A DNA stretch of 37,735 nucleotides, taken from Phycisphaerae bacterium (lineage in GTDB: Bacteria > Planctomycetota > Phycisphaerae > Tepidisphaerales > Tepidisphaeraceae). The stretch is from the NCBI GenBank assembly GCA_025924315.1, contig JAICIO010000050.1:1-37735 (forward strand), written 5' to 3'. A model generated the notes under the pieces. The model worked only from the letters and a program-made list of their open reading frames with translations. It did no database searches and had not been told where the DNA came from. How positions within the stretch are numbered: the stretch's first letter is position 1; every line of letters starts with the position of its first letter. The position numbers and the translations under genes are program-made. This document shows, in pieces, positions 1 to 18,331 of this stretch.

Positions 1-264
1 AAAAACGCGAAGACAGGCAGCGGGATTTTCTTCGTGACCGTGCCATCGGGTCGACGAGCGGTTGTGTCGAAGGTACGCAATCCGTCGAGCAAAGAGTCGG
101 GGGAGCTCGAAGTGGAAGTGAACGGCAAGAGGGGCGAGCCGACGAAAATCCCCGCCGGGAAGACGGTCACGATTCGCACGAACATTCCCGACGGCGCGAC
201 AGACCTCGGCGTGCGATATAGTGGCGGAAAAGATCTCGTCATCGAGGAGACCAGCTTCCAGTGA
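1..264 (+). CDS. C-terminal end of an unidentified protein, cut by the window start
   Basis: The frame is open from base 1 and ends at the TGA at 262-264, so only about 87 C-terminal residues are seen. A GTG at 34 is in frame but there is no reason to take it as the start. The visible part alternates short beta-strand-like stretches with Gly, Asn and Pro turns (for example GELEVEVNGKRGEPTKIPAG), which looks like a terminal beta-sandwich of a secreted enzyme; that fold is inference. No family motif is recognised. The stop overlaps the GTG start of the next gene (GTGA at 261-264), so it very likely belongs to the same operon as the carbohydrate enzymes that follow. Confidence 0.6.
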   Translation, partial: KNAKTGSGIFFVTVPSGRRAVVSKVRNPSSKESGELEVEVNGKRGEPTKIPAGKTVTIRTNIPDGATDLGVRYSGGKDLVIEETSFQ

Positions 265-2408
265 TTCATCACAACGGGCGACTCGTCGTTGTGTGTCTGA
301 TCCTCTTCTGTTTCTCCGTGCGCGCGCAGGAATGGAAAGGTCGGGTGCGCGGGTCGTGGGTGGCGGATGAGAACGACGCGAAAGGCGTCGTGCTGTCGAC
401 GAAGGACAGCGTGTGCGACATCGTCGTGCAAAGTCGTTTTGGATTCTTTCCGAACGGCGAGTCTAACGTTCAGCAGGCCGCGCAATTCCTAGCTGCCGAC
501 ATCGAAAAGATTTGTGGAAAGAAGCCCTCGATCGTTGGATTTCCCAATCCCGATCACACGTCAATCATTCTCGCGACGGCGATTCCCGGCGTGAAGGAAG
601 AGAATCCGAAGTGGCCGTATGCGTTCCCGATGGGTGCGTGGGAAGCATTCGAAATCCATACCGGACCGAATGTCGTCACGTTAACCGGATCTGATTCGCG
701 CGGGACTGCTTTCGCCGCCTACACACTGAGTGAGCGCCTCGGCATCGATCCGCTTTATCTCTGGACCGGTTTCGTTCCCGAGCGTCACGAGAAGCTCGTG
801 ATGAAGGAGACCAACTTTGTCTCCGGCCCATCGACGGTGAAATACCGCGGGATGTTTCACGACGATGAGGACATCCTTCCGCGACCGTTCGAAAACACCG
901 GTTATCCCTATCGCTTCGGCGACGTGCCGCTCGAGTGGTACAAGAAATATTTCGAGACAGCGCTGCGGTTGAAGTTCAACATGGTCGCGCCGTGGACGCG
1001 CGTGCATCGACGTTACGAAGTGCAAAAGCTCGCGAGCGATTGGGGACTGTTTTACACGTCGCATCACTACGACATCGTTCTTTCAAATCCGTTCGGCATG
1101 ACGCGCTACGGTCTGGCGGAGCAGCGCAAATCGGGGACGAACTGGAATTGGCAGGCGAACCGTGAAGGCCTGCTGCGCTACTGGCGCGGCGGAATTGAAG
1201 AGAACAAGGACATCAACTGCATCTGGCCGGTTGGATTGCGCGGCACAGACGACACAGGTTACACGTTTGCAAAGGGCACGACAGCGGAGCAAGAAGCGCA
1301 GCTCTTCAAGGACGCGATCGACGCGCAGGTGTCGATGGTCAAGGCGATGGTGCCGAAGGACAAGCAACCGCCGCTGTTTCACTTCACGCTTTACACCGAA
1401 ATGCTGCCGAAGTTTCTCAGCGGTGATCTCGACGTTCCGGACGACGTGATGATCATCTGGCCCGACGACAACGACGGAAATATGCGTGGTCTGCCCACGC
1501 CGGAAACTCGCGGTAAATGGAAGCACGGCGTTTATTACCACCTCGCCTATCTCGGCAAACCGGTGAAGCAGAATGCGAGCACCGTTCCGCCGGAGCGCAT
1601 CGCGACGGAATTTAAGAAGATCGTCGATTCCGGGGCGACGGAATACATGCTCGTGAACGTTTCCGAGCTTCGCGAATTCGTTCGCGAGGCGAAGATGATT
1701 TCGGACATCTGCTGGGATGCGAAGACGGCGCTCGCCGGCGACGATCCGGCCAGGCGATACGAAGAGTGGTTCGCGCAGGAATACTTCGGCGACGCTGCTC
1801 AGAAAGACGCGGCCGAGGCGTACGCGGACTATTTCAAGCTGCTCGACACCTACGACAAACAATGGTACGCCGCGGAGCGATTTCATTCGTTGATCGAGCA
1901 CCTCTCGGCGCGCTTTACCGGGCACAAGTTTCCGCCGATTCCCGATGTGAAAGACGAACTCACGAAGCGCAATGAGCTGTATGAGTCGCTCATGCCGAAG
2001 TTCGACGCGGCGCGAGAGAAGATGACCTATCCACAGCAGCAGTTCTTCCAGGATAGCCTGATGCTTCCGCTGCTGTTTGATTATCGCCCGACGCAGGGGG
2101 CGCTGAAGTTGTGCGATGCGATGAATGAGCCTGACGATGCGAAGGCGTTCAAGCTGTGCGAGGAGGCGATGAAGCCGCTCGAGCAACTGGAAGTTGAGAT
2201 TCTGCGCGCCGAGCATCCGCCGTTCGAGAAGTGGTACCGCAAGACGTGGATCCGCCGCGAGACGAAGAACTGGAACGTGCATCGATCGTTCGAGGAATTG
2301 CGAATGTTCCTGACGACGCGCGGCGCGGGTAAGCTGATCGATCCCGAACCGCCGAAGGTTCGGCCGACGACGTTCACCAACGCGCCGACGACGGCGCCAT
2401 CACGATGA
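261..2408 (+). CDS. Glycoside hydrolase family 115-type protein (probable xylan alpha-1,2-glucuronidase)
   Basis: A protein of 715 aa starting at a GTG that overlaps the preceding stop. The first 22 residues form a Sec signal peptide (hydrophobic VVVCLILFCFSV, then RAQ). Residues 60-190 resemble the N-terminal domain of GH115, including the TGSDSRGTAFAAYTLSERLGI block. YRGMFHDDED at about 195-204 matches the family YRGxFxNDE signature at the start of the barrel. WPDDNDG at about 398 and the VNVSELREF region near 470 also fit. Known GH115 enzymes remove glucuronic or 4-O-methylglucuronic acid from xylan. At 715 aa it is shorter than many members (often 800-1000), probably lacking the C-terminal beta domain. 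Six bases separate it from the next gene. Family assignment is good; exact substrate is inferred. Confidence 0.82.
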   Translation: MIHHNGRLVVVCLILFCFSVRAQEWKGRVRGSWVADENDAKGVVLSTKDSVCDIVVQSRFGFFPNGESNVQQAAQFLAADIEKICGKKPSIVGFPNPDHTSIILATAIPGVKEENPKWPYAFPMGAWEAFEIHTGPNVVTLTGSDSRGTAFAAYTLSERLGIDPLYLWTGFVPERHEKLVMKETNFVSGPSTVKYRGMFHDDEDILPRPFENTGYPYRFGDVPLEWYKKYFETALRLKFNMVAPWTRVHRRYEVQKLASDWGLFYTSHHYDIVLSNPFGMTRYGLAEQRKSGTNWNWQANREGLLRYWRGGIEENKDINCIWPVGLRGTDDTGYTFAKGTTAEQEAQLFKDAIDAQVSMVKAMVPKDKQPPLFHFTLYTEMLPKFLSGDLDVPDDVMIIWPDDNDGNMRGLPTPETRGKWKHGVYYHLAYLGKPVKQNASTVPPERIATEFKKIVDSGATEYMLVNVSELREFVREAKMISDICWDAKTALAGDDPARRYEEWFAQEYFGDAAQKDAAEAYADYFKLLDTYDKQWYAAERFHSLIEHLSARFTGHKFPPIPDVKDELTKRNELYESLMPKFDAAREKMTYPQQQFFQDSLMLPLLFDYRPTQGALKLCDAMNEPDDAKAFKLCEEAMKPLEQLEVEILRAEHPPFEKWYRKTWIRRETKNWNVHRSFEELRMFLTTRGAGKLIDPEPPKVRPTTFTNAPTTAPSR

Positions 2409-2414
2409 GGTGAT

Positions 2415-4406
2415 ATGAACCGACGAGATTTCATGAAGCTGGCGGCGCTGGCGGTGGCTGGGGGCAGTGCGTCGGGCGCGCTTGCGCAAGCACCGGTCAC
2501 GCCCGAACGCGGCGAGCCACTTGCCGTCGCGGGCGAAAGCGCGTTCGATCAATTCTTTCTTCAAATTCTCAACGGCTACCTCGCCAACTCACGAAAAACC
2601 TGCGACAGCTTCGCGGTTGTGGATTTTCCCGACGGCCGGCATCTGAAAACGTGCGACAACCCGAAAGATCACGGCTACGTCGGCGTCGCGCGCATGCTCC
2701 CCGCGATGGTCGGGTGGATTCAGAGCGGTCGCAGCCCGCAGGAGTTTGATGTCGGCGGCGGAAAGAAGATGTCGCTGCAGGACATCGTGCTGGCGACGTA
2801 TCGCAACGCGTTCAATCCGGAGCATCCGGATTTCTGGGGCATGCCCGAGAACAAGAACGGCAAGCCGACACAGCGGTCGGTCGAGGCCTCACTCGTCGCG
2901 CTCTCACTCGCGCGGCTCGGCGTTTCGTTCGTCGAGCAGCTGACTCCGCAAGAGCGAACGAACATCCAGAACTGGCTGGCGGCGTGTGTGGTCGTGCCGG
3001 AGCGCACGAACAATCACGCGTGGTTCACGGCCACCAACCAGGCGGCGCGGATCAAGCTGTCGAAGAAGTTCAAAGAATTTTCGGGCGATGAGAAGTGGAT
3101 GATCGACGATCTCACCGCGCTCGACAACCTCTACAAAACGGCGAAGGACGGGTGGTACAGCGATCAGCCGGACGTGCCGGTGTTTGATTACTACGCGTTC
3201 TGGACGTTCGGGAATTTCCCGCTGTATTGGGCGGAGATCGTCGGCGACGCGTATCCGGATTGGGCGAAACTGTTCCGCGATCGCGTGAAGGTGTTTCTCC
3301 AGAAGACGCCATTCTTCTATTCGGCAGACGGTGGGCATCCACTCTTCGGGCGCTCGCTCGTCTATCGCTGGTCGATGCTCTCGCCGATGGTCGAAGGATA
3401 TCGGCAGGGCCTGTGGCCTCACTCACCCGGGCTGCTGCGTCGCATCTGCCGTCTTAGCATTGACTGGGAGCGGCGCACCGGCTGCTTCGACGAACAGCGC
3501 GGAAAGCTCATCGAGATTTATTCGCCCAATGGCACGCCGTTCATGCGCGAGCCATATGTCGATGACGGGCACCCATATTGGACGATGCAGGGGTACTCTT
3601 TCCTCGGCATTCCATCAAACGACAAATTCTGGACCGATCCCGAAGAGCCGCTGCCGATCGAGAAGGACGATTTCGTCACGCGCTTCGAAGGCCCGCGGTT
3701 CTTGCTCGTCGGCTCGAAGCGCAGCGGGCAGGTGAAGTGGATCCATTCGCAGACGATGGCCCGCCGCGAGCCGTATCGCGATAAGTACATTAAGCTCGGC
3801 TACTCATCGCATTTCTTCTTCAACGTCATTCAGGAAAAAGATCGCGTGCCGTGGGATCAGACCGTGGTGCTGCGCGATCGGGCGAGCGGTGCGTGCTACG
3901 GCCGATCGAACATCAAAAGCGGCGAGCTCACGAAAGACGGCTATCACACAATCTGGATCATCCCGGTTGATGGCAAGGATGTTCAGATCGACACGACCAC
4001 GCGCATCGAAGGTGAGTTCGAGCATCGCACGCACGTCATCACCGCGCCTGCGGATTTCGAGCATCGGAACTTTGAAATCCTCGAAGGCTCATACGCACTC
4101 GGCCTGAATGAGAACGATCATGTCTGGCAGGATCGGTATGAGAATTGGCAGGCAATCTCCGGCAAGACTGGGCAGATTATCTCGTGGAATCTCGCGGGAT
4201 TTGCGGGCGTCGAGCTGACGCAATCGTTCGGCCAGCAGGAGCCGAAGGTGAACGTGATTTATCCACAGTTCGCGATCAACACGCTGCACACGCTTATGAG
4301 GCCCGGCGAGATGAAGCTTGTCAGCCTGCACTACGCGAGCCCGAAGGTGGAGACGCGCGAGGCAATCTTCCAAATGGCCAGAGAACGAGGACTTCTCAAT
4401 GCATAA
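2415..4406 (+). CDS. Tat-exported DUF2264 domain protein, possible glucuronidase-type glycosidase
   Basis: A protein of 663 aa with ATG at 2415 preceded by GAGGTG. The N-terminus MNRRDFMKLAALAVAGGSAS is a twin-arginine signal, with likely cleavage near ALAQA. Residues 30-420 carry the DUF2264 pattern: NNHAWFTATNQAAR, DGWYSDQP with FDYYAFWTFGNFPLYWAE, GRSLVYRW, then PHSPGLLRR and HPYWTMQGYSFLGIP. The fold expected for this family is an alpha/alpha barrel followed by beta domains, like polysaccharide lyases and heparinase-like proteins. From memory, DUF2264 members include beta-glucuronidases placed in CAZy family GH154; I treat that as a hypothesis here. It sits directly after GH115 and overlaps the next gene by 8 bp, so it probably acts on the same uronate-containing glycan. 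Confidence 0.75.
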   Translation: MNRRDFMKLAALAVAGGSASGALAQAPVTPERGEPLAVAGESAFDQFFLQILNGYLANSRKTCDSFAVVDFPDGRHLKTCDNPKDHGYVGVARMLPAMVGWIQSGRSPQEFDVGGGKKMSLQDIVLATYRNAFNPEHPDFWGMPENKNGKPTQRSVEASLVALSLARLGVSFVEQLTPQERTNIQNWLAACVVVPERTNNHAWFTATNQAARIKLSKKFKEFSGDEKWMIDDLTALDNLYKTAKDGWYSDQPDVPVFDYYAFWTFGNFPLYWAEIVGDAYPDWAKLFRDRVKVFLQKTPFFYSADGGHPLFGRSLVYRWSMLSPMVEGYRQGLWPHSPGLLRRICRLSIDWERRTGCFDEQRGKLIEIYSPNGTPFMREPYVDDGHPYWTMQGYSFLGIPSNDKFWTDPEEPLPIEKDDFVTRFEGPRFLLVGSKRSGQVKWIHSQTMARREPYRDKYIKLGYSSHFFFNVIQEKDRVPWDQTVVLRDRASGACYGRSNIKSGELTKDGYHTIWIIPVDGKDVQIDTTTRIEGEFEHRTHVITAPADFEHRNFEILEGSYALGLNENDHVWQDRYENWQAISGKTGQIISWNLAGFAGVELTQSFGQQEPKVNVIYPQFAINTLHTLMRPGEMKLVSLHYASPKVETREAIFQMARERGLLNA

Positions 4407-7263
4407 CGAATCGATCGTTCGAATGGTTGTCGTCGCAGTCGTACTTTCATTCGGCTTGTGCAGCGCGCGGGCGGCGGACGTGAAGCAGATCGAGATCACG
4501 AACAATCAGCCGTTCGCGGTGCAGATGCCGTTGCGGTTGTACGGGGCGAAATTGCCGGATTCACGCGTTGCGCAGAACGACGGCGATGATTCGCTCGTGC
4601 TGGTGAATGTCGATGCGAAAGCAACAGCGAACATTGACACGGGCGCCGAGCAAAAGGCTGATCGCACCGCGACGATCGCCGCGAAGGACGATGGCGTTTC
4701 GATCGAACTGAGCGATAAGCCGGTCGGCACGCTCGCGTGGGATCTGATCGTCGTCCCCAACAGCAAAGACGACGGCAGTGGCGAGCCTGCAAAGCCCAGG
4801 GATTTCGCAGCCGAGTTCAAGGCAATCCCGCTGAAGTTCGCGAAGACCGCCGAAGGACCCGTGTTCGAAAAGTGGTCGGCCAAGGGCGCGAAGGTTGGCA
4901 TCAACCTCGCGATCGATCTTTTCGCATTTCGCGACGGCACCGTCGATGTGACGACAACCGCGATCGATGAGTCGGCGCCGAAGACGAACGTCTATGCAGC
5001 CGTCATCAGCAAATTCGAGCCCGCCAAGCCCGCATCGCGATCGATGTGCTACAACAACGCGATCTCACCCCTGGGCGAAGGGCGCAGCCCGTGGCGGCCC
5101 AACGGCGAAAAAGATCGCCACATGTTCATTCAGCGCGGCGTCGACTGGATCAATTTCAAGTCGGAAGATGTGCCGTCAATCCTTCTGCTAAACGACTTCG
5201 CGACGTCGTTCACGGTTCACGTGGATAAGACGGCAAAGACGCCGGCGCATTGGACGGGCGCGAACGGCCCACAACTGGCGGAAGAAGTGCAATCGAGCGG
5301 CAACACGATTTACTCAGTCACAGAGCTGGCGCATCCAACCATTAAATACTATCGCTCGCGCTTCGAGCCGAATGTACTGCCCGACAAAGATCAACCGATG
5401 AAGTTCACGCACCGCCTGATGCTGTCGGACAAGCCGGTAGCGGACGCACGGGCAGATCAGGCGTTCATTGCATATACGACATTCACGCCGCAAGCGCACG
5501 ATGGCGACAATCTCAAGGTTAACATCGGCGCGCCGTTCACCAAGTTTGGCACCGCCTATTTCCCGTATTCCACACTTGGCGAAAACTTCGAGGGCTGGCA
5601 TCTCCCGGGCCAGAGCAAGGAGACCTATTGGCCACTGTCCGCCGACACCGTGAAGAACTACAAGCTCTTCGCCGACGACATCAAGCGCGACCTGCGCATC
5701 GCCAAGGCGATGGGGTTCCAGACGATTCGCATGCACCACCTCGAGATGATCTCGACGCTCGATAAGAGCACGCAGGACGAGTATCTCGACTTCTTCTTCG
5801 GACAGCTGAAAGAGCTTGGTCTCACGGCGCTGATCGACGTGAAGCTGCCGGTCGCGCGCGTCGCTGAGCTGGTGAAACGATATGGCCCGCTGATCGACGG
5901 TGTCGAGATCGACAACGAAGTGCTCATCTTCGGCATCAACGACAACGAAGTGCAGGGCTGGAAGGACACGTACAAGGCGGTGAAGGAGGTCAATCCGAAC
6001 ATGCCCGTGTGGTTGACCGCGCACACGAACACCGGCGCGTTCGCGCGGCTGCTCAAGCTCGGCGTGCCATTCGATCGCCTCGGCCAGCACGCGTACATGG
6101 ATTCGCTCAATGCGATTCCGTCGTCGCGCGATTATTCGCTCGCGATGGCGAACTACGCGACGAAGATCGGCAAGTCGCCGATCATCACCGAATGGAACTG
6201 GCGGTTCCTCACCCGCATGAACCCTGAAGCGCGGGCCGAGGTCTACACGCCGATCTTCGAGAACGTGCTGAAGACCGGCTCGATGCCGATCCTATATCAG
6301 TTCCAGTTCCAGGAAAGTCTCGCGATGGCGACGCATACGCTGCGCGGGATCCGGCATTATGAATTGCTGAATCTCTCACGGCGGCCGAAGCCGGAGGCGT
6401 TCAAGTTCATCGCGTTGATGCAGCAGTATGGCGATCCGAACGCGCCGCAGATGGAACTGCCAACGCGGTATTTCAGCGGTGATGATTCGACCATCACGGT
6501 GAAGAATACGACGAACGAGAAGGCGACGTACACGATCACCGGTGAAGCTTCTGCGGGGGCGCAGGCATCGGTTGAACCGGCGTCGCTCGAGATCGATCCG
6601 GGTCAGACGAACACGTTCGCGTTGCACGTCAAGCTTTCGCCGGACGCGCTTCCCGGTTTCTATCAAGGTTTCGCTCGAATTCAGCGGCAAGATGGAAACA
6701 TCGCTTATGCGTGGGCGGAGAAAGCCAATCCCGGCGCACCGAAGATCGACAAGGAAAATGCGTGGCACAAGGAAGTGAAGTATTCGAGTGATGCGCTGGA
6801 TTACGACTTCAATCGCGACCTGGCGGTGGTGTTCGCGACCGAGCCGACGCAGGATCCGGACGCCGGTAAGCGCTGGGATGTCGAGAGCGCGTGGTTGTTG
6901 CAGCAGACGCTCGAGTCCGCGACGGGCCGGCCGGTGAAGTTCTACGCCGCGAATGATCTGCCTGATGACCTTCGCAAGAAGGGGAACCTCATCGTTGTCG
7001 GCATGCCGAAGACGCATGAGCTGATCAAGTCGGTCGAAGGTGAGATCAAGCCGGAAGGCAAGGCGTGGGTCGCGCATGCGAACGCGAACGATCAGCACGG
7101 CGATTGGCTGATCGTCGGCGGAGAGGATGAAGCGTCGCTGAATCTCGCCGCGACGGATCTGACCCTGCGGTATTGGAAGTATGCGAAGGATTCCGCGTCG
7201 CGACGGATTCCTCTCACGAACAAGCCGATCGAGAAGGGACCGGACCCCGGCGCGCTGCCCTAA
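4399..7263 (+). CDS. Large secreted clan GH-A type glycosidase of unassigned family
   Basis: A protein of 954 aa. I take ATG 4399, which overlaps the previous stop (ATGCATAA) and has GAACGAGG upstream; it gives a clean signal peptide (RMVVVAVVLSFGLCSARA). Residues 27-400 look like beta-rich domains. Residues about 410-690 form a TIM-barrel region: IRMHHLEM, then EIDNEV with Glu507 as candidate acid/base, GQHAYMD, and ITEWNWR with Glu598 as candidate nucleophile. That strand 4 NE plus strand 7 TEW layout is the clan GH-A signature. Residues about 720-780 are an NPCBM- or alpha-sandwich-like segment. The last 150 residues (FATEPTQD, IVVGMPKT, DWLIVGGEDEASLNLAATDL) resemble the helper domain usually found at the N-terminus of GH20, GH67 or GH115 enzymes, here placed at the C-terminus. 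I cannot name a CAZy family. Confidence 0.75.
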   Translation: MHNESIVRMVVVAVVLSFGLCSARAADVKQIEITNNQPFAVQMPLRLYGAKLPDSRVAQNDGDDSLVLVNVDAKATANIDTGAEQKADRTATIAAKDDGVSIELSDKPVGTLAWDLIVVPNSKDDGSGEPAKPRDFAAEFKAIPLKFAKTAEGPVFEKWSAKGAKVGINLAIDLFAFRDGTVDVTTTAIDESAPKTNVYAAVISKFEPAKPASRSMCYNNAISPLGEGRSPWRPNGEKDRHMFIQRGVDWINFKSEDVPSILLLNDFATSFTVHVDKTAKTPAHWTGANGPQLAEEVQSSGNTIYSVTELAHPTIKYYRSRFEPNVLPDKDQPMKFTHRLMLSDKPVADARADQAFIAYTTFTPQAHDGDNLKVNIGAPFTKFGTAYFPYSTLGENFEGWHLPGQSKETYWPLSADTVKNYKLFADDIKRDLRIAKAMGFQTIRMHHLEMISTLDKSTQDEYLDFFFGQLKELGLTALIDVKLPVARVAELVKRYGPLIDGVEIDNEVLIFGINDNEVQGWKDTYKAVKEVNPNMPVWLTAHTNTGAFARLLKLGVPFDRLGQHAYMDSLNAIPSSRDYSLAMANYATKIGKSPIITEWNWRFLTRMNPEARAEVYTPIFENVLKTGSMPILYQFQFQESLAMATHTLRGIRHYELLNLSRRPKPEAFKFIALMQQYGDPNAPQMELPTRYFSGDDSTITVKNTTNEKATYTITGEASAGAQASVEPASLEIDPGQTNTFALHVKLSPDALPGFYQGFARIQRQDGNIAYAWAEKANPGAPKIDKENAWHKEVKYSSDALDYDFNRDLAVVFATEPTQDPDAGKRWDVESAWLLQQTLESATGRPVKFYAANDLPDDLRKKGNLIVVGMPKTHELIKSVEGEIKPEGKAWVAHANANDQHGDWLIVGGEDEASLNLAATDLTLRYWKYAKDSASRRIPLTNKPIEKGPDPGALP

Positions 7264-7280
7264 CAACCCGACAAGCGCGC

Positions 7281-7358
7281 GTCATTCTGAGCGAAGCGAA
7301 GAATCTCGACATCGCGTGACGCGTTCTATCCGAGATCCTTCGCTTCGCTCAGGATGAC
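7281..7358. repeat. Palindromic repeat, copy 1
   Basis: An imperfect inverted repeat of 78 bp. The left arm at 7281-7308 begins GTCATTCTGAGCGAAGCGAA and the right arm at 7331-7358 ends with CGCTTCGCTCAGGATGAC; the arms pair along almost their full length around a loop of about 22 bp. The same element occurs at 10819, 14328 and 27867. This copy lies between the GH-A gene and the first GH10-like gene, where it could fold in the mRNA and partly separate the two expression units. Elements with this core are familiar as dispersed palindromes in many bacterial genomes. Confidence 0.9.
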
Positions 7359-7381
7359 AATGTTTGCGGACCGAGGTGGAT

Positions 7382-9094
7382 ATGAATCGACGTGATTTTC
7401 TGCGCACGAGCGCGGTAGTGGCTGCGACCGCGATCGGGTGTCGGTCGAATCGATCGCACCACCCCGCGCCGACATCCGGTCCGGCCGAGGAAGGCATCGG
7501 GCTGAGTCCGGAGGATTCCTACGCGGAGCGCAATGCATCCAAGGTTCCGCACCTTCGGGTGATTTTGAAAGAGGTGGATGATTCGCCGCTCGATCCGGAG
7601 CGGCTGAAGCTGATTCACGCTCGCGACCTGCCGAACGATCCGATTCCTGTGCCGATCGACGAATTGAAGGGCGAGGCGCTCGTCGGTCTGGCGAAGGAGC
7701 CGATTCAGATCTGTGTGCGATTGAAGGTGCCTGACTTCGGCGAGGTTTACTGCTTCGCGGACAATGACGGCAAAGGCTACACGCGCGTCGGCGATGTCAA
7801 TTTTGTCGTCGATGCCGCCGTCACACGCCTGGCTCGCGTAAAGAAAGTCATCGCGAAGAACGGCTGGCTCGGCGTTCCCTCCGATCCCGAACTCGACAAG
7901 CACCTCGAGGCCGCCGCCAAGCCGATCCCGAAAGAACCCGGCCCCGCGCGAACCGCCGCTGCGTATGAAGCGCTCTCGCATGGGTTGCACGCGGGCGAGC
8001 GATTCGTGCTGAATCTGGCGAAGCACCGCATCTCGCGACTGGCGGCGCCTCGGAAGAATTTCGGCTTCGGCATTCTGGGCGCGCACCCGGATCGCAAAGG
8101 TGATTACGACAAGCGGATCAACGAGCTGTTCAATTTCGCGACGGTCGCGTGGTACTCGTGGCGAGAGGAGAAATACGCCAAGACCGCGCAGCCGGTGGAT
8201 TACAAGCGGATGGACGAATCGATCGCGTGGTGCAAGGCGAACCACATTACGCCGAAGAATTTCGGGTATTTGTACATGACGCGCGGTGCGACGCCGGCCT
8301 GGCTGCGTCCGCCGGAGTTTTCAACCGAGACGACGGCGCCCGCGGTCGATCGCTTCAACTCGCGTTGGGGCTTCGACGAGCTTCGCGCGCTCTACAAGCA
8401 GATCGTTCACGACACCGCCGTTCGTTATCGCGGGCAGGTGCCATACATGGAGGTGATGAACGAGGCGCACGATAAGGCGAACCTTTGGCGGATGACGCAC
8501 CCGCAGGTGCTCGAGATGGCGCGCACCGTGTTCCAGGCGGCGCGCGATGGCGATCCGAATCTGAAACGGCAGATGAATCATTGCTGCCTGTGGGGCGAAT
8601 ATGCGAAGAGCCCGAATCCGGGCGGCGAGCGAAAATGGTCGCCGTATCGGTTCGTGCGAGATTGTCTCAGCAACGGCGTCGAATACGAAGTGATCGGCTT
8701 GCAGCTTTACTATCCGCAGTTCGACATTTTTGAGATCGATCAGATGCTGAATCGGTTCATGGATTTCAAGAAGCCGATGCACATTACTGAGATTGCATGT
8801 GCGTCGAAGGACACGCTCGATCCGCAAAGCATGCGGCCGAAGACGTACGCGCCGGGCTGGCACGGGCCGTGGACGGAAGCCACGCAGGCGGACTGGCTCG
8901 AGGCGGTTTACACGATCGTCTACAGCAAGCCGGAGTTTGAAGAGATCGGCTGGTGGGATTTGGACGACACGCCCGGCCATTTCTGGCAGCACGGTGGACT
9001 GTTGAATGCGGACATGACCCCGAAGGAAGCGTTCCGTCGATTGCGAAAGTTGCAGGAACAGTGGGGCGTGGCGAAAGAGATGGCGAAGCAGTGA
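7382..9094 (+). CDS. GH10-like glycosidase, Tat lipoprotein (first of a tandem pair)
   Basis: A protein of 570 aa. ATG 7382 is chosen because GAGGTGG lies just upstream and it starts exactly at the Tat motif NRRDFLRTSA; a TTG at 7364 is the only earlier option. The signal ends in AIGC, so Cys20 may be lipidated. Residues 45-200 form an N-terminal beta-rich module of unknown type. The barrel follows: YLYMTRGATPAW, then PYMEVMNEAHDKAN with Glu361 as candidate acid/base, and MHITEIA with Glu470 as candidate nucleophile, then GWWDLDDTP and GLLNADMTPKEAF like the GH10 C-terminal WGLxD and KPAY regions. GH10 enzymes are mainly endo-beta-1,4-xylanases. The first-strand motifs are divergent, so exact activity is uncertain. 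A paralogue follows with a GTGA overlap. Confidence 0.78.
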   Translation: MNRRDFLRTSAVVAATAIGCRSNRSHHPAPTSGPAEEGIGLSPEDSYAERNASKVPHLRVILKEVDDSPLDPERLKLIHARDLPNDPIPVPIDELKGEALVGLAKEPIQICVRLKVPDFGEVYCFADNDGKGYTRVGDVNFVVDAAVTRLARVKKVIAKNGWLGVPSDPELDKHLEAAAKPIPKEPGPARTAAAYEALSHGLHAGERFVLNLAKHRISRLAAPRKNFGFGILGAHPDRKGDYDKRINELFNFATVAWYSWREEKYAKTAQPVDYKRMDESIAWCKANHITPKNFGYLYMTRGATPAWLRPPEFSTETTAPAVDRFNSRWGFDELRALYKQIVHDTAVRYRGQVPYMEVMNEAHDKANLWRMTHPQVLEMARTVFQAARDGDPNLKRQMNHCCLWGEYAKSPNPGGERKWSPYRFVRDCLSNGVEYEVIGLQLYYPQFDIFEIDQMLNRFMDFKKPMHITEIACASKDTLDPQSMRPKTYAPGWHGPWTEATQADWLEAVYTIVYSKPEFEEIGWWDLDDTPGHFWQHGGLLNADMTPKEAFRRLRKLQEQWGVAKEMAKQ

Positions 9095-10797
9095 ACCGCC
9101 GGCATTTCCTGATCTCGTCCGCGGCGCTCGCGCTCGGCTGCCGCGCGCGATCATCGTCGCCGACCAGGCGCGCGCCATGGCCGGCACCGACGACGGAGGA
9201 AGCGAAGGGTCTGCGAGCCGAAAACGCAACGGCGGCGAAGAACGCCTCGCGCGGGCCGCACCTTCGCGTGGTCTTGCAGGAAGCCGATGGTTCGCCGCTG
9301 GGGCATGATCGCGCGCGGTTGCTGATGGCGCGCGATCTCGCCAACGACGCGTTTCCGGCGCCGATCGATGAACAGAAGGGGCTCACGCTCGTCGGGCTCG
9401 CAAACGAACCGTTGCAGGTTGCGGTGCGGTTGAAGGTCCCGGACTTCGGCGAGATCTACTGCTTCGCGGACAGTGGTGGGAAAGGTTATGAGCGGGATCA
9501 GGAAGTCGATTTCATTGTCGATGCGGCGGCGACGCGACTGCGGCGGGTGCGCGAGGCCATGGATGCCCAGCGCCCGCTGGGGATTCCGAGCGACCCGGAA
9601 TTGGACAAGCATCTCGACGAGGCGGCGCGACCTGTCCCAAGGGAGGCGGGCGCGGCACGAACCGCGGCGGCGTATGCATCTCTCTCGCATGGGTTGCATG
9701 CCGGCGAACGCTTCACGCTGAACCTCGCGCGCCATCGCATCTCGAAGCTGTCCGCCCCGCGGAAAGACTTCGGGTTCGGCATCCTCACGCATCCTGACGT
9801 CGGCGGCGAGTATGAGAAACATGTTGCCGACGCATTCAACTTCGGCTCGTGCGGGTGGGGCACGTGGAAAGACGAAGCTGCCGCCAGGGGCGATGCGCCG
9901 CTCGATTATGCCCGCGCCGACCGCTCGGTCGACTATTGCAAGCGCCTGGCGATGACACCAAAAATCTACGGTTATCTCTACGCCGCGAAGAGCGTCACAC
10001 CGCCGTGGATCAAACCGGAGTTTTCGACCGAAACCACTGCCCCCGCGATCGGTCGATTCAAAACGGGTTGGGGTTTCGATGAGCTTCGCGAGCTGTACAA
10101 AAAGATCGTTCACAACACGGCCGTCCATTATCGCGGGCGCGTGCCGTACATGGAGGTGATGAACGAGGCGCACGACAAGGCGAACATCTGGCGCCTGACG
10201 CACGAGCAAATGCTCGAGATGGCGCGCACAGTGTTTAACGCGGCGCGCGACGGCGATCCGGATGTGAAGCGGCAGATGAACCACTGCTGCCTGTGGGGCG
10301 AATATGCGAAGACACTCAATCCCGACGGCTCGCGCATGTGGACGCCGTATCGGTATATCCGCGATTGTTTTGAAAATGGCGTGGACTGCGAAGTGATCGG
10401 TTTGCAGCTGTACTATCCGCAGTACGACCTCTTCGAAATCGATCACATGCTTTCGCGTTTTCTCGACTTCAAACGGAAGCTTCACATCACCGAGATGAGT
10501 ACGCAGTCGGTGGATGGACAGGATCCGCAGAGCATGCGACCGACATCCGCGCCGCCGGGCTGGCATGGGCCATGGAACGAGACGATGCAGGCGGACTGGC
10601 TCGAAGCGATTTACACGATCGCGTACAGCAAGCCGGAGTTTGAATGCGTCGGGTGGTGGGACCTGGCGGACGTGCCCGGCAAATTCTGGCCGTATGGTGG
10701 CTTGCTCCATGGCGATTACACGCCGAAGGAGAGTTTCGTGCGGCTGCTGAAGCTGCAGGAGCGGTGGGGCGTGAAGAAACAGAACGTGAATGCATGA
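9091..10797 (+). CDS. GH10-like glycosidase, Tat lipoprotein (second of a tandem pair)
   Basis: A protein of 568 aa. The start is the GTG at 9091, which overlaps the previous stop (GTGA) and opens directly into the Tat-like signal NRRHFLISSA; LALGC is a good lipobox with Cys17. It is clearly a paralogue of the gene before it: both share VPYMEVMNEAHDKAN, RQMNHCCLWGEYAK, VIGLQLYYPQ and the same N-terminal module (PHLRVVLQEADGSPL). Candidate catalytic residues are Glu359 in VMNEAHD and Glu468 in HITEMST. The proteins differ throughout, so the duplication is not recent and the two may attack different linkages or chain lengths of a xylan-like substrate. The stop TGA overlaps an ATG of the next gene. 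Confidence 0.78.
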   Translation: MNRRHFLISSAALALGCRARSSSPTRRAPWPAPTTEEAKGLRAENATAAKNASRGPHLRVVLQEADGSPLGHDRARLLMARDLANDAFPAPIDEQKGLTLVGLANEPLQVAVRLKVPDFGEIYCFADSGGKGYERDQEVDFIVDAAATRLRRVREAMDAQRPLGIPSDPELDKHLDEAARPVPREAGAARTAAAYASLSHGLHAGERFTLNLARHRISKLSAPRKDFGFGILTHPDVGGEYEKHVADAFNFGSCGWGTWKDEAAARGDAPLDYARADRSVDYCKRLAMTPKIYGYLYAAKSVTPPWIKPEFSTETTAPAIGRFKTGWGFDELRELYKKIVHNTAVHYRGRVPYMEVMNEAHDKANIWRLTHEQMLEMARTVFNAARDGDPDVKRQMNHCCLWGEYAKTLNPDGSRMWTPYRYIRDCFENGVDCEVIGLQLYYPQYDLFEIDHMLSRFLDFKRKLHITEMSTQSVDGQDPQSMRPTSAPPGWHGPWNETMQADWLEAIYTIAYSKPEFECVGWWDLADVPGKFWPYGGLLHGDYTPKESFVRLLKLQERWGVKKQNVNA

Positions 10798-12995
10798 TCG
10801 ATATGAAGCGCGCCATTTGTCATCCTGAGCGAAGCGAAGGATCTCGATATCGGGAGTCGCTGGCAATCTCGAGATTCTTCGCTGCGCTCAGAATGACAGT
10901 GATTGCGCTCGTGTTCGTTACAACGTTGATCGCTCGTGGTGACGAGAAGTTCCGCGCCCCCGCGATTCCACTCATCACGCATGATCCTTATTTCAGCATC
11001 TGGGAAATGTCCGATCGCCTCACGGATGATTGGCCCAAGCATTGGACGGGCGCAACGCAGGCGCTGTGCGGAATGGTGCGAATCGACGGAAAATCGTATC
11101 GCTTCCTCGGCCCGAAGCCCGACGGTGTCAGCGTTGACGCGCTCGAGCAGAAGTCGCTCAAGATTTGGCCCACGCGAACGGTGGCGACGTTCGCGGCGCC
11201 GGGTGTTGAGCTCGAAGTCACGTTCTGTTCGCCGTTATTGCCGAACGATCTGACTACGTTCGCCCGGCCCGTGTCGTATGTTTTCGTTGGACAAAGGAAC
11301 GCGGATGGCAAGCCGCACACAGTCGAGGTTTACCTCGATGTCTCCGCGGAGATCGCCGTCAACTCGCCGGATCAAACGGTCGATGGCGCACGCGAAGATG
11401 CGTATCAACAAGCAGTGCCGTGCGCCGCCGGTGGTGACCCGATGTTGCTCAGCCTGGGTTCGAGCGATCAGCCGGTGCTCAAGCGCGGCGGCGATGGTGT
11501 GCGGATCGACTGGGGCCGAGCGTATCTGAGCGGCGAATACGCGTCGCACACAGCGCTCGGCAACGCGGTCGATCTCCGGCGGCAATTCGTCACCGACGGC
11601 ACGCTTCCGCCTTCTCGCACGGTAAAGGGCCAGGTCGTGCAGCAGGGATGGCCGGTAATGGCGATGACCCGGACCATTATGGGTTTCAAAGACCCATCGA
11701 TTCCGGACAAGACTTTTTTCCTCGTCGGCTACGATGAAGATTATGCGGTCGAATACCTCGGCCAAAAGTTACGCCCATACTGGCGAAAGGAAACGGACAA
11801 TTTCAGCGACGTGATCTTCAAGGCGTATTCGTACAACGAGCAGGTTCTAGAGGGCTGCATCAAGTTTGACGAGTCGTTGATGGCGGATTTGAAGGCAGCG
11901 GGCGGTGAGCAGTATGCACAGCTTGCGGCGCTCTGTTATCGCGAAGCGATGGCGGGGCATGGGCTCGCGCTATCGAGCGACGGCCGGCCTTTAATGTTCG
12001 CGAAGGAAAACTCATCGAATGGCTGCATCGGCACCGTCGATGTGATTTATCCCGCCGCGCCGATCTTTCTGCTTCTCTCGCCGAAATTGGTGGAAGCGAA
12101 TCTCGCGCCGGTGCTCGAATACGCCGAGCTTCCGCGGTGGAAGTGGAGCTTTGCCCCGCACGATCTCGGCACCTATCCGCACGCAAACGGCCAAGTGTAC
12201 GGCGGCGGCGAGCGGACGGAAGAGAATCAGATGCCGGTGGAAGAGTCAGCGAATCTGATCCTACTCGTCGCGGGGTTGGAAAAAGGTCTGCAAGGCCCAA
12301 CAAAGCTCGCGGAGAACCATCGCGCGCTCTTGAAAAAGTGGGCGGACTATCTTCTCGTGAAAGGCCTCGATCCCGAGCGGCAACTTTGCACCGACGATTT
12401 CAGCGGACATCTTGCCCACAACGTGAACCTCTCTGTGAAGGCGATCCTCGGCATCGCCGCATACGGGCAGATCTGCGAGACACACGGCGATCATGCCGAG
12501 GCCACCCGATATCTCGATGAAGCGAAGCAAATGGCGAAGAAGTGGGTCGCAATGGCGAAGGACGGCGATCACACGAAGCTCGCGTTCGACAAGCCGGGCA
12601 CCTGGAGCCAGAAATACAACCTCGTCTGGGATCGGGTGCTTGGATTGAACCTGTTTCCGCCGGAAATTGCGCGGAACGAGATCGCGTTTTACAAGACAAA
12701 GCTCAACAAATATGGGCTCCCACTGGACAATCGCGCCACGTTCACGAAAGTGGATTGGACCGTGTGGACGGCATGTCTATCGGATAATCAAGCCGACTTC
12801 GCGGCGCTGGTGAATCCGACGGTACGGTTTGCAAACGAGACGCCCGATCGCGTGCCGATGACGGACTGGTACCAGACCGATACCGGCCACGCCATGTCCT
12901 TCCGCGCCCGGCCGGTCGCCGGCGGGGTATTCATGAAGATGCTGTGCGATGAAAAAATGTGGCACAAGTGGATCGATGCTTCTAAAAGCAACTGA
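10794..12995 (+). CDS. Glutaminase-A-like (DUF4965/DUF1793) secreted protein
   Basis: About 733 aa from ATG 10794, which forms ATGA with the previous stop; ATG 10803 is an alternative. A palindromic repeat (10819-10897) lies in frame inside the 5' end, encoding HPERSEGSR and RFFAALRMT, and its last ATG (10893) starts a normal signal peptide (TVIALVFVTTLIARG). The mature protein follows the GtaA pattern: RAPAIPLITHDPYFSIW at the start, a beta-rich middle, then an alpha/alpha region with GCIGTVDVIYP, HDLGTYP, MPVEESAN, GTWSQKYNLVWD and SFRARPVAGG. Fungal members are described as glutaminases, but the fold is glycosidase-like and in this operon a role on carbohydrate is at least as likely. The final residues come from a CAACTG-rich short repeat. 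Confidence 0.8.
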   Translation: MIDMKRAICHPERSEGSRYRESLAISRFFAALRMTVIALVFVTTLIARGDEKFRAPAIPLITHDPYFSIWEMSDRLTDDWPKHWTGATQALCGMVRIDGKSYRFLGPKPDGVSVDALEQKSLKIWPTRTVATFAAPGVELEVTFCSPLLPNDLTTFARPVSYVFVGQRNADGKPHTVEVYLDVSAEIAVNSPDQTVDGAREDAYQQAVPCAAGGDPMLLSLGSSDQPVLKRGGDGVRIDWGRAYLSGEYASHTALGNAVDLRRQFVTDGTLPPSRTVKGQVVQQGWPVMAMTRTIMGFKDPSIPDKTFFLVGYDEDYAVEYLGQKLRPYWRKETDNFSDVIFKAYSYNEQVLEGCIKFDESLMADLKAAGGEQYAQLAALCYREAMAGHGLALSSDGRPLMFAKENSSNGCIGTVDVIYPAAPIFLLLSPKLVEANLAPVLEYAELPRWKWSFAPHDLGTYPHANGQVYGGGERTEENQMPVEESANLILLVAGLEKGLQGPTKLAENHRALLKKWADYLLVKGLDPERQLCTDDFSGHLAHNVNLSVKAILGIAAYGQICETHGDHAEATRYLDEAKQMAKKWVAMAKDGDHTKLAFDKPGTWSQKYNLVWDRVLGLNLFPPEIARNEIAFYKTKLNKYGLPLDNRATFTKVDWTVWTACLSDNQADFAALVNPTVRFANETPDRVPMTDWYQTDTGHAMSFRARPVAGGVFMKMLCDEKMWHKWIDASKSN
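10819..10897. repeat. Palindromic repeat, copy 2, inside a coding 5' end
   Basis: A 79-bp inverted repeat of the same family as copy 1. It begins GTCATCCTGAGCGAAGCGAA and ends CTGCGCTCAGAATGAC. It is in frame with the glutaminase-A-like gene and contributes about 26 codons with no stop. Its right end contains the ATG at 10893-10895, directly before the hydrophobic signal peptide. Confidence 0.9.
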
Positions 12996-13020
12996 CAACT
13001 GTCAATGGCAACTGCCAACT
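12989..13020. repeat. Short degenerate CAACTG direct repeats
   Basis: Units CAACTGA, CAACTGT, CAATGG, CAACTGC and CAACTA follow each other across the gene junction. The TGA stop of the glutaminase-A-like gene (12993-12995) lies in the first unit, and the array fills most of the 30-base gap to the next gene. It looks like a small tandem expansion. Confidence 0.6.
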
Positions 13021-13025
13021 AACTG

Positions 13026-14294
13026 ATGAAGATCACAGACATCAAAGCAACGACGGTGACAGTTCCGCTCGAAGCGCCGCTGCGGCATGCAAACGGGTGC
13101 CACTGGGGGCGGTTTGTGCGGACGATCGTCGAGGTGGAAACCGACGAAGGAATCACGGGCCTGGGCGAAATGGGCGGAGGGGGCGAATCCGCGGAGGCGA
13201 CGTTCCGCGCGATGAAGACGTATCTCGTCGGCCACGACCCCGCGCGCATCGAGGAGATGCGTTTTAAGATCGCGAATCCGACTGCTTCGCTTTACAACAA
13301 CCGCACGCAGGTGCTGGCGGCGCTGGAGTTCGCCTGCCTCGACATCCTGGGCAAGAAGTGGAACGCGCCCGTGCACGAGATCCTCGGCGGAAAGCTGCAG
13401 GATCGCGTGCCGTTCGCTTCGTATCTTTTCTTCCGCTATCCAAACGCCGACGGGAAGAATGAAGTGCGCACGATCGATCAGATGGTCGCGCATGTGAAGG
13501 AACTGAAGCAGAAGTACGGCTTCACGAGCCACAAGATGAAGGGCGGGGTTTTCGCGCCCGAGATCGAGCTCGATTATTTCCGCGCGATTGCGCACGCCGT
13601 CGGCGCCGACAAAGGCCCGGGACGCAATACCGATCGCGTTCGCTTCGATCCAAACGGCGTGATGTCCACCGAGCAGGCGATCCGCTTCGGCCAGGCGATT
13701 CAGGAGCTGAACAACGACTACTTCGAAGATCCGGTGTATGGGATGAACGCCATGCGCCGCGTGCGCGATTTCGTGCGCATTCCGACTGCGACCAACACGG
13801 TGGTGGTCGGCTTCGAGCAGCTTAGCGCCAACCTTCTCAACACCGCGGTCGATGTCATTCTGCTCGACACGACGTTCTGGGGCGGCATTCGCCAGTGCGT
13901 GAAGGCCGCGGGCGTCTGCGAGACGCTTCAGCTCGGCGTGGCGGTGCATTCATCCGGTGAGCTGGGGATTCAGCTTGCGACGATGCTCCAGCTGGGCGCG
14001 GTGATTCCGAATCTCTCCTTCGCCGCCGACGCGCACTATCACCATCTCGCGGACGACATCATCGTCGGTGGAAAGATGAAGTACGAAAATGGCTCGATCA
14101 AAGTGCCCGACGGCCCGGGACTCGGCGTGAAACTCGACCGCGAAAAGATGGGGAAATACAGCGAGCTGTTCAAGCGACTGGGCGCGTATCCGTACGATCA
14201 GGATCCGCTGCGGCCATGCTGGACGCCGATCATTCCCAACAATCGCTGGGCCGATCCGACCGACGCCCGCAATCCGGAGATCCGCGTATCATGA
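13026..14294 (+). CDS. Enolase-superfamily acid-sugar dehydratase, glucarate dehydratase-like
   Basis: A cytoplasmic protein of 422 aa without a signal peptide, starting at ATG 13026 ([11 protein letters not shown], the usual opening of the superfamily). Motifs follow the glucarate dehydratase subgroup: K170-M-K172 (the KxK base in HKMKGGV), metal ligands Asp208 (FDPNG), Glu234 (FEDP) and Asn257 (PTATN), and the Asp281 (LLDTTFWGG) and His308 (AVHSSGELG) dyad. Known glucarate dehydratases convert D-glucarate to 5-keto-4-deoxyglucarate. The presence of both the KxK lysine and the His/Asp dyad says the active site is intact. It is coupled to the GH2 gene by ATGA, and its neighbours release and import uronic acids. 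Other acid sugars are possible substrates. Confidence 0.82.
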
Positions 14295-17200
14295 CGTTCT
14301 TCGCACAACCGAAAAACCCGGCGAGCAGTCATCCTGAGCGAAGCGAAGGATCTCGGGATCGAACGACGCGCTCGATTTCGAGATTCTTCGCTGCGCTCAG
14401 AATGACAGCTGTCGTGGCGCTTATGAGCCTCACGGTCACATCGACGGTACACGGCGAGGTGCAAGGCGGAGGCATCAACATCACTCCCGACCAGCTAAAG
14501 ATCGGCAATAAAATCGACCTCACCGGTAAATGGTTCTTCAAGCCGGGCGTTGATGAAAAGTCTCCCGAGAAGGCGGAGTCGAGCGAAGGATATCTCACCG
14601 TTCCCGTTCCGCAGATGCTCAGCCGAATTCAGTGGTGGCTGGACGATTCGGAGGATTTCAAAAAGTGGGAAGACGCGCGGCTGAAGTCGCTGGGGTTCGA
14701 TACGGAGAAGACGGACGAAGGTTGGTACCGGCTCGAGTTCGACTGTCCGCAGCTTGCGAAGGATCAGCATCTCTGGATCGAGTTCGACGGCGTGGCGATG
14801 AAGTGCAAGACGTTCTGCAACGGTGCGCCGGTGGGTGAAGACAAGGGAATGTTTCATCGATTCGGTTACGACCTGACGCCGCATCTCAAGGCAGGCAAGA
14901 ACGTCCTCGCGATGTGGGTGTCGATGGAAAAGATCCCGCCGACGGAGGGAAATCTTGGCGAAGCGGTGACGGTGAATTTATCGGCGGCGAAAGTGATCTC
15001 GATGAGTAAGGGGATGTTCGGTCCGCTCACCGCGGGCAAACCGAATCGGGATTACGATCTCTATGGCATCTGGCAGCCGGTGAAGTTCGTCGTCCGCGGG
15101 CCGGCGCGGATCACGGATGCCTTTTTCCAGACGACACCGGATTTGAAGGGCGCAAAGATAGATGTCGATCTTCAATCGTCGGGTCTCCACGGCAACGTGC
15201 GCGTTCGTGCTCGGTTTACGGATCCCAAAGCGCCCGCCCACGCGGCACGATTCGAGCTATCGCAGACTGCGCCGCTCGCGGGTGTTGCTCACGTCAACCT
15301 GCAAGGCTCCGGCTTTGATGTGAAACCATGGACGCCCGCGGAGCCGAACCTCTACAAACTCGAGATCACCCTCGAGGACGAAAAGGGCGAGGTGCTCGAC
15401 CGCTGGACGCACAACGTCGGCTTCCGCACCTTCGACATTAAAGGCAATCATTTCTACCTGAACGGCAAGCCGTACTTCCTTCGCGGGGCGGATCAGGCGC
15501 CTTATGGGAAGAATCCGACCGATCCGGCGCTCGCGCGCAAGTACATCCAATACATGCACGACGGCAATCAGCGGTTCACGCGCACGCACGCGACGCCGTG
15601 GAATGAGCCGTGGCTCAATGCCGCCGACGAAATCGGCGTCGCGGTTAGCATCGAAGGGATTCGGCCGTGGGCGTTCGCGGGCAAAGCGCCGGAAGGCAAG
15701 CCCGCCATCATGCCGCCGAAGGACATCTTCCAGCATTGGCTGATGGAAAACGAAGACGTCGTGAAGCGCTGCCGCAACCATCCCAGCGTGTTCATCTTCA
15801 CCGTCGGCAACGAGATGATGCTCCGCGATGGGAAGAATATGGAGAAGTGGAAGCTGCTGAGCGAGGTCACAAAGAACACGCGGAAGTTTGCGCCGGGTTA
15901 TCCGATCGTGTGCTCGTCGGATTATGTGCGCGATCCGGGTTTTTACGAGAAGTCGCTTAAGCCCGCAGGGATCGATGATGGCGATGTCGACGACATGCAT
16001 CGTTACAGCGGCTGGTACGGTCCGTCCGCGTTCGTGATCAACTCGAAATTCGAAAAGGAAATGAAGGACAACCAGAAGAAGCGCCCCCTGATGGGCCAGG
16101 AATTCGCGACGGGCTATCCCGATCTCGACACTGGCCTGCCGGTGCTTCGTTACACGCGCGACCTGCTCACCCCGCAGGCGTGGATCGGGCACTGGGCTTA
16201 TCCCGGCAACGACCCCGCGTTTTTCCTGAATCACCTTGCGGTGCTGACGAAGCGTTGGGCCGATCAGCTGCGCTTCGAGCGCGGCGATAACACGTCCGGC
16301 TTCGGCCTTTTCAGCAGCGAGTGCTGGTACAAGCACAGCTACGATCCCGCGACGATCGAACCGTACGCACCGATTTACAACGCGGTGAAACTTGCGTGGG
16401 CGCCGATCGGGGTCGCGCTCGAAACCCCGCGGCGACGCTTCTATGCCGGTGATGAAACTTCCACCATCCTGCACATCACGAACGATGACGAGTCATTTCG
16501 CGATCTCTCGAATCTGAAGATCAGCGTCTACTTCAAGGATCCGAAGAACGTCGATCAGCCGATGAAGCAGGACGTCGGTGAAGTCGATTCGCTGCCGTAT
16601 TACAAGACCGCGGACGTGGACATGAAGTTTAAGCTGCCGACACCCGAGGCCGATCGCGCGGCAATAGTGATGGTCGTTCAAGTGACGAGCGACGGTAAAG
16701 AGATCGGCCGCACAGAAGACCCGATCGAGGTCTTCAAGAGGATCGAGATCCCGGAGAAACATGGTGACGATGTCATTGTGATGAAGCCAGATGAGCCGAT
16801 CGGTGATCTCGCAGAAGGGAAGCCGCTTCGGCAGAAAATCGAGGACGGCGCGACGCTCATCGTCTTCTCGCCCAAGAAGGAGATCGTTTCGCTTTTCCCG
16901 AACGATCTGATCGACGCGAAAGAAGGCAAAGGCGAATTCGCGGATTGGTTGCCGGCTGCGGGAACGAAGCTCACGAAAGATCTTCATCCGATGGACCTGA
17001 AGTGGTGGGGCAAGAAGCTCCTCGATCGTGAAGGCGCGTACATCTCGACGCAATCGCATCGTCTTAAGCTCGGCGGAAAGGCGCGCGAGCTGATTCGATT
17101 CATCCCCCCGCACGGCTATATCTCCGAGGAGAAAGTTTCCGAGCAGTATCGCTGCGTGATGTCGGAGATCCCGATCGGCAAAGGCCGGCTGTGGATCGTC

Positions 17201-17368
17201 GATCTCGATGTGCAGGATTCGGTCGGCGCTGATCCTGCGGCGGATTTGTTTGCGCGGAATCTGATCGAGGCGGCAAGCGATCCGGAATCAACGAAGGACC
17301 TCAAGCCGGTTCCGTCGCATGAAGAATTTTTGAAAGGCGCGGATCGGGAAAAGATGACGTTAGATTGA
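14291..17368 (+). CDS. Secreted glycoside hydrolase family 2 protein
   Basis: About 1025 aa from ATG 14291, which overlaps the previous stop (ATGA). A palindromic repeat (14328-14406) is read in frame, and its last ATG (14402) begins a normal signal peptide ([17 protein letters not shown]), so the functional start may be 14402. Residues about 75-230 are the sugar-binding domain ([33 protein letters not shown]). An immunoglobulin-like domain follows, then the TIM barrel opening [17 protein letters not shown]. Candidate acid/base is Glu508 (TVGNEMM); candidate nucleophile is Glu604 (MGQEFATG). The C-terminal 350 residues add beta domains. GH2 includes beta-galactosidases, beta-glucuronidases and beta-mannosidases; the specificity is not readable, though the neighbours make a uronate substrate plausible. 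Confidence 0.8.
14328..14406. repeat. Palindromic repeat, copy 3, inside a coding 5' end
   Basis: A 79-bp inverted repeat of the same family, from GTCATCCTGAGCGAAGCGAA to CTGCGCTCAGAATGAC. It is in frame with the GH2 gene, 37 bases after its first ATG, and encodes [12 protein letters not shown] and [11 protein letters not shown]. The ATG at 14402-14404 at its right end immediately precedes the signal peptide, the same geometry as copy 2. Confidence 0.9.
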
Positions 17369-17384
17369 GCGAATGGCCTCGAAA

Positions 17385-17408
17385 GCCCCGGCTGCTAGCA
17401 GCCGGGGC
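17385..17408. terminator. Perfect GC-rich palindrome between the GH2 and SDR genes
   Basis: A perfect 24-base palindrome: GCCCCGGCTGCT followed by its exact reverse complement. It lies 17 bases after the GH2 stop, where a terminator is expected, but no T run follows, so it may act as an mRNA 3' stabiliser, an inefficient terminator, or simply be a dispersed repeat. Confidence 0.5.
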
Positions 17409-17447
17409 GTTGTGAGTTGTGCGGACTTTGCACACAACGGAACGCAG

Positions 17448-18224: not shown

Positions 18225-18246
18225 CGCGAGGCAGTGTGAGTCGCGT

Positions 18247-18307
18247 TTAGCCGCGAACTTGTTCGCGATGTCTTACCGAGAAACCTCGCGAGCAAGCTCG
18301 CGGCTAA
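18247..18307. repeat. Inverted repeat of a second type
   Basis: Left arm 18247-18268 (TTAGCCGCGAACTTGTTCGC) and right arm 18286-18307 pair with only a few mismatches around a 17-base loop. The core AGCCGCGAGCTTGCTCGCG differs from the other repeat family here. It lies between the SDR stop and the transporter ribosome-binding site. Confidence 0.8.
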
Positions 18308-18331
18308 GCGAAAAGGCAAAGGAGCTCATTC

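Follow-up and report, generated by a model that had tools for sequence, protein, structure and literature searches.

A rare, so far unnamed family of predicted clan GH-A proteins whose genes neighbor uronic acid genes across three phyla of bacteria

We analyzed a 37,735-nt stretch of DNA (hereafter, the window) from a Phycisphaerae bacterium (GTDB lineage Bacteria; Planctomycetota; Phycisphaerae; Tepidisphaerales; Tepidisphaeraceae; assembly GCA_025924315.1, contig JAICIO010000050.1, positions 1-37,735, forward strand). The genes identified from 261 to 19753 all lie on the + strand in an operon-like arrangement. Among them is a gene for an unclassified protein of 954 residues, which begins at 4399 and shares 8 nt with the end of the DUF2264 gene just upstream. 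The neighboring genes and the features of this protein are as follows.

261-2408, + strand: GH115 protein; also adjacent in the other Phycisphaerae locus
2415-4406, + strand: DUF2264 protein, distantly like beta-D-glucuronic acid dehydratases by sequence comparison
4399-7263, + strand: coding sequence for the 954-residue unclassified GH-A protein, from the ORF translation and relatives
4399-4476, + strand: probable Sec signal peptide, residues 1-26, read from the sequence without a predictor; pLDDT below 50
4477-5523, + strand: N-terminal half, rich in beta-strands, residues 27-375, from the predicted structure of the full protein
5524-6456, + strand: GH-A-type (beta/alpha)8 barrel, residues 376-686, from the predicted structure and from fold and profile comparison
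5917-5919, + strand: Glu507, proposed acid/base, after strand 4, from sequence, model, and alignments
6190-6192, + strand: Glu598, proposed nucleophile, on strand 7, from sequence, model, and alignments
6457-6753, + strand: Ig-like domain, residues 687-785, from sub-threshold fn3_6 and FixG_C matches and modeled strands
6754-7260, + strand: C-terminal alpha/beta domain, residues 786-954, of the type seen in GH67/GH115 N-domains, from profile and fold
13026-14294, + strand: glucarate-dehydratase-like protein of the enolase superfamily, conserved neighbor, from sequence comparison
14216-17368, + strand: GH2 protein, about 1,050 residues long, conserved neighbor, from sequence comparison
17373-18224, + strand: SDR oxidoreductase, conserved neighbor, from sequence comparison
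18332-19753, + strand: MFS transporter orthologous to galactonate/hexuronate-type transporters, conserved neighbor, from sequence comparison

Two adjacent, overlapping, and divergent GH10-like proteins (7364-9094 and 8953-10797) each carry the motifs VMNEAHD and LHITE and match PF00331 weakly (E = 2e-11 and 1.5e-10, respectively); the protein at 7364-9094 also matches a TAT signal model. A GtaA-type protein (10644-12995; DUF4964, DUF5127, and PF16335) lies within the same glycan locus, a setting in which a glutaminase label looks doubtful.

In 397 genomes of the window's class, we found one close relative of the 954-residue protein, with 56% identity. A first scan of genome contigs with a single sequence gave no result. 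When a two-sequence profile of the window protein and this relative was used to scan about 85,000 species, relatives were found at nine loci: the same Phycisphaerae contig, six in Acidobacteria, and two in Verrucomicrobia. Because the scan works from two short peptide patterns, nine is a lower bound. Searches of plasmids and of viral contigs yielded no relatives. Seven of the nine relatives are open, full-length frames that align end to end; of the other two, L013 has lost its start where the contig stops, and L012 is interrupted. The latter, at 9944-12753 in an Acidobacteria MAG, is broken into two overlapping frames by either a frameshift or an assembly error.

Alignment of the window protein with eight relatives gives identities of 40-56%, distributed unevenly over the N-terminal half (34-43%), the barrel (54-76%), the Ig-like domain (24-37%), and the C-terminal domain (36-56%). 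The barrel is the best conserved of all parts and is therefore under the strongest constraint. Domain order is identical in the relatives, with the alpha/beta domain at the C-terminus of every member. The gene is real, with relatives in Planctomycetota, Acidobacteria, and Verrucomicrobia, and the family to which its GH-A protein belongs is rare and so far unnamed.

Its N-terminal sequence suggests that the protein is probably secreted. A model of the full protein, with the nine-sequence alignment as input, has a mean pLDDT of 72.9 and a pTM of 0.76; overall confidence is moderate, with pLDDT below 50 at residues 391-414, 508-510, and 637-660, close to the active site. For the N-terminal half, we limit the fold claim to beta strands.

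Enzymes of clan GH-A have their catalytic glutamates at strands 4 and 7 of the barrel. The (beta/alpha)8 barrel of the clan is present here in a predicted, not solved, structure: strand 4 spans residues 499-504 and is followed by N506-E507, and strand 7 spans residues 593-601 and contains E598, so that both glutamates and the Asn before the acid/base occupy the places characteristic of the clan. All nine members of the alignment keep both E507 and E598, which are also aligned in two distant GH39/42-like proteins (L003 and L004). N506 and most barrel motifs are likewise invariant, as are six barrel arginines (R444, R602, R606, R652, R661, and R662). The earlier note had proposed a clan GH-A barrel with Glu507 and Glu598 as candidate catalytic residues. 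The ORF translation places them at these same numbers, in EIDNEV and ITEWNW, and fold prediction, fold search, and invariance all agree with the proposal.

The best Foldseek matches of the model include GH2 beta-glucuronidases, GH158, GH157, and GH39 (best E = 1e-9). In structural alignments, about 245-280 residues of 378-681 match GH5, GH1, GH39, GH164, and PslG alike, with Z of 18-20 among the 50 matches listed. GH157 and GH158 are on the Foldseek list and not among these 50, an absence that excludes nothing. Since similar scores are obtained with many GH-A families, the clan is clear and no single family stands out. The window protein has in common with these enzymes the barrel, the NE after strand 4, and the TE on strand 7, but it is only 10-18% identical to them in the structural alignments, shows no family-level sequence match, and has in addition a beta-rich N-terminal half and a C-terminal alpha/beta domain.

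The gene's surroundings are conserved along with it. At most of the nine loci, the genes beside it encode an enolase resembling glucarate dehydratases, an SDR, a GH2 protein, and a transporter of the hexuronate type, and often a DUF2264 protein and a uronate isomerase as well. The conserved set of the Acidobacteria loci comprises a regulator of the ROK type, a large protein that weakly matches TonB receptors, the GH-A protein, the enolase, the isomerase, the SDR, the MFS transporter, the GH2 protein, and often DUF2264; it is incomplete in places, partly because contigs end. Compared with their Acidobacteria orthologs, the window proteins are 71-88% (dehydratase), 50-52% (GH2, over most of its length), 62-67% (SDR), 51-63% (MFS), and 45-49% (DUF2264) identical. 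The dehydratase is nearest to the glucarate dehydratases of NCBIfam and to glucarate-dehydratase-type PDB entries but falls far under the equivalog cut-off, so the name expresses resemblance only. The uronate isomerase of the Acidobacteria loci matches the solved BH0493 at an E of about 1e-144 (PDB). It lies at 14162-15517 in L008, with orthologs in L007, L009, L010, and L012; those of L007 and L009 are without a Pfam match at E 0.001. An ortholog with 51% identity is encoded elsewhere in the window's genome.

The window's DUF2264 protein is distantly similar to beta-D-glucuronic acid dehydratases, whose family, once filed as GH154, has been proposed to consist of dehydratases (PMC12269599). 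Two GH88-family genes elsewhere in the window's genome are possible partners.

The uronic acid character of the locus, already recognized in the earlier note, is more strongly supported than that reading could have known, as uronate genes accompany the gene across phyla. Because the gene is kept beside uronic acid genes in three phyla, its product probably helps break down glycans that contain glucuronic acid. GH115 is encoded close by in both Phycisphaerae loci; neither GH115 nor GH10 was seen in the Acidobacteria loci over the stretches examined, where some contigs end. The shared substrate therefore need not be glucuronoxylan, and the glucuronoxylan link is confined to the two Phycisphaerae loci. 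As for the neighboring GH2 protein, which has orthologs beside the gene in three phyla, GH2 glucuronidases are expected to carry an N-x-K motif; we rejected a canonical beta-glucuronidase identity for this neighbor, as N-x-K is not found at a conserved position among the orthologs.

Such a locus could also accommodate a clan GH-A hydrolase that cuts a neutral linkage (e.g., beta-xylosidic, beta-galactosidic, or beta-mannosidic) in a glucuronic-acid-bearing glycan and does not recognize the uronic acid itself. The structural matches among the 50 listed are mainly neutral-sugar enzymes (a GH5 mannosidase, GH1 glucosidases, GH39 xylosidases, and a GH164 mannosidase), and the window neighbors include GH10-like and GH2 proteins, both of which would fit such an activity. 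The constant partners across phyla are, however, uronate enzymes, and the six invariant barrel arginines would suit an anionic substrate, a point that is only suggestive. We regard action on a neutral linkage as tenable but rather unlikely.

The earlier note could not place the barrel in a known family, and Pfam, NCBIfam, and PDB sequences likewise point to none, with the relatives included. Neither the barrel nor the C-terminal domain falls within any Pfam or NCBIfam model; Pfam gave only sub-threshold Ig/fn3 matches, at residues 697-766, and NCBIfam none above noise. None of the nine members matches a glycoside hydrolase model in Pfam, PF01229 (GH39) among them, even at E up to 1. Among PDB sequences, no barrel match was found with the single protein, the full profile, or a barrel-only profile; with no PDB chain related to the barrel profile, the barrel is not recognizable, at HMMER sensitivity, as belonging to a family with a solved structure.

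The two GH39/42-like planctomycete proteins L003 and L004, weak relatives that came up in the search of the class, share 22-25% identity with the window protein in the barrel region and have both catalytic residues in register, whereas their flanking domains differ. Profile alignment of the barrel with this pair (hhalign) gives a probability of 96.7% and E = 4e-10, placing E507 on NE and E598 on ITE; this E value flatters the match because the two proteins were picked for matching. A profile enlarged with L003 and L004 picks up 5jvk, a GH39 protein (E = 2e-22), along with PslG. These matches vanish once the pair is left out of the profile, and we rejected a GH39 assignment on this basis. L003 and L004 are 800-870 residues long or more, match GH42, GH39, and GH10 models weakly or partially, and possibly constitute another unclassified group.

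We conclude that the family is undescribed as judged by Pfam, NCBIfam, and PDB sequences, and that it may already be part of a recent CAZy family. Placement in a CAZy GH-A family that has no Pfam or NCBIfam model would leave the protein ordinary except for its domain order. Recent GH-A families may be without a Pfam model, and GH157, GH158, and GH39 are among the best Foldseek matches; against this, the barrel profile finds no relative among PDB chains, and we consider membership in an existing family unlikely.

The C-terminal domain is below Pfam reporting in single-sequence scans. In profile alignments (hhalign), it matches a Glyco_hydro_67N set from related genomes (probability 93%, E = 3e-7), compared with less than 2% for control sets of SDR, dehydratase, and DUF2264 proteins. 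A Glyco_hydro_20b set and a two-sequence set of GH115 N-termini gave no hhalign match to the domain; only the Glyco_hydro_67N set did, so the links to GH115 and GH20 come from structure alone. Modeled by itself, the domain has a pLDDT of 80.5. In fold, it comes closest to an archaeal S-layer cell wall anchoring domain (9fsa; Z = 15.7 over 126 residues, 2.6 A), followed by the N-domains of GH115 (Z = 11.8) and GH67 (11.4), BcsB (9.4), and GH84 and GH20 (8.4-8.6). Profile and fold thus both identify an accessory domain of the Glyco_hydro_67N type. We rejected this domain as a glucuronidase signature, given the better match to the S-layer domain and the almost equally good one to BcsB.

The position of the domain is unusual. 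In related genomes, 18 of the 20 Glyco_hydro_67N-type matches start 28-92 residues from the start of their open frame, and at least 440 residues follow in all 20, so none is C-terminal; the family's own C-terminal profile retrieves only the two known members from 298 genomes of the class. The GH67 and GH115 alpha-glucuronidases have the accessory alpha/beta domain in common with the window protein, but theirs is N-terminal with their own catalytic barrel after it, whereas here it is C-terminal. The window barrel has GH-A motifs and matches no catalytic Pfam model of GH67 or GH115, placing the protein outside both families. Profile, fold, and position counts all bear out the earlier description of a GH67/GH115/GH20-type domain at the unusual end, with the qualification that such domains are used more widely than that description implied. 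This accessory domain probably has a structural or binding role.

The S-layer and BcsB domains share the fold but are not enzymes, and apart from this fold, nothing connects the window protein with cellulose secretion or S-layers. A protein that only binds or is otherwise non-catalytic, with a GH-A barrel as scaffold and an S-layer-like domain at the C-terminus as its anchor on the cell surface, would accord with the nearest fold match but is very improbable in view of the invariance of both glutamates, the Asn ahead of Glu507, and most motifs of the barrel, the higher identity of the barrel (compared with the C-terminal domain), and the occurrence of the same domain type in GH67, GH115, GH84, and GH20 enzymes.

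Computation supports the family, the fold, the invariant catalytic pair, the domain order, and the conserved locus; catalysis, stereochemistry, and substrate are what we infer, the substrate being deduced from the neighbors only. The reading that we consider reasonably probable is that of a secreted, probably retaining clan GH-A hydrolase of a family undescribed in Pfam, NCBIfam, and the PDB, acting on glucuronic-acid-containing glycans. In a double displacement with retention, the acid/base would be Glu507 and the nucleophile Glu598. The enzyme would most likely cut a glycosidic bond in glucuronic-acid-containing glycans, or in oligosaccharides derived from them, outside the cytoplasm. The released uronic acid could then be imported via the MFS transporter and pass to uronate isomerase, or be oxidized and handled by the glucarate-dehydratase-like enzyme, or both. 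More speculatively, and with low confidence, the proteins might found a CAZy family of their own within clan GH-A, with a specificity for glucuronic-acid-substituted glycans that is new or rare and with a C-terminal GH67/GH115-type domain that helps handle uronic acid substrates.

If confirmed, these sequences would be the founding set of an undescribed clan GH-A family with its catalytic pair already predicted and its substrate narrowed by a conserved uronate locus, and would add a hydrolase to the glucuronic acid pathways of Acidobacteria, Planctomycetota, and Verrucomicrobia. Because the GH67/GH115-type accessory domain sits here at the opposite end of an unrelated barrel, the family also offers a test of that domain's role.

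Two of the Acidobacteria loci, L007 and L012, carry a CBM96 protein in place of GH115. The N-terminal 580 residues of the L012 protein (14911-17211) contain GH-A-like motifs (IWNEPDH and FSEHN) and belong to no Pfam family; its counterpart in L007 (12926-15129) is apparently split.
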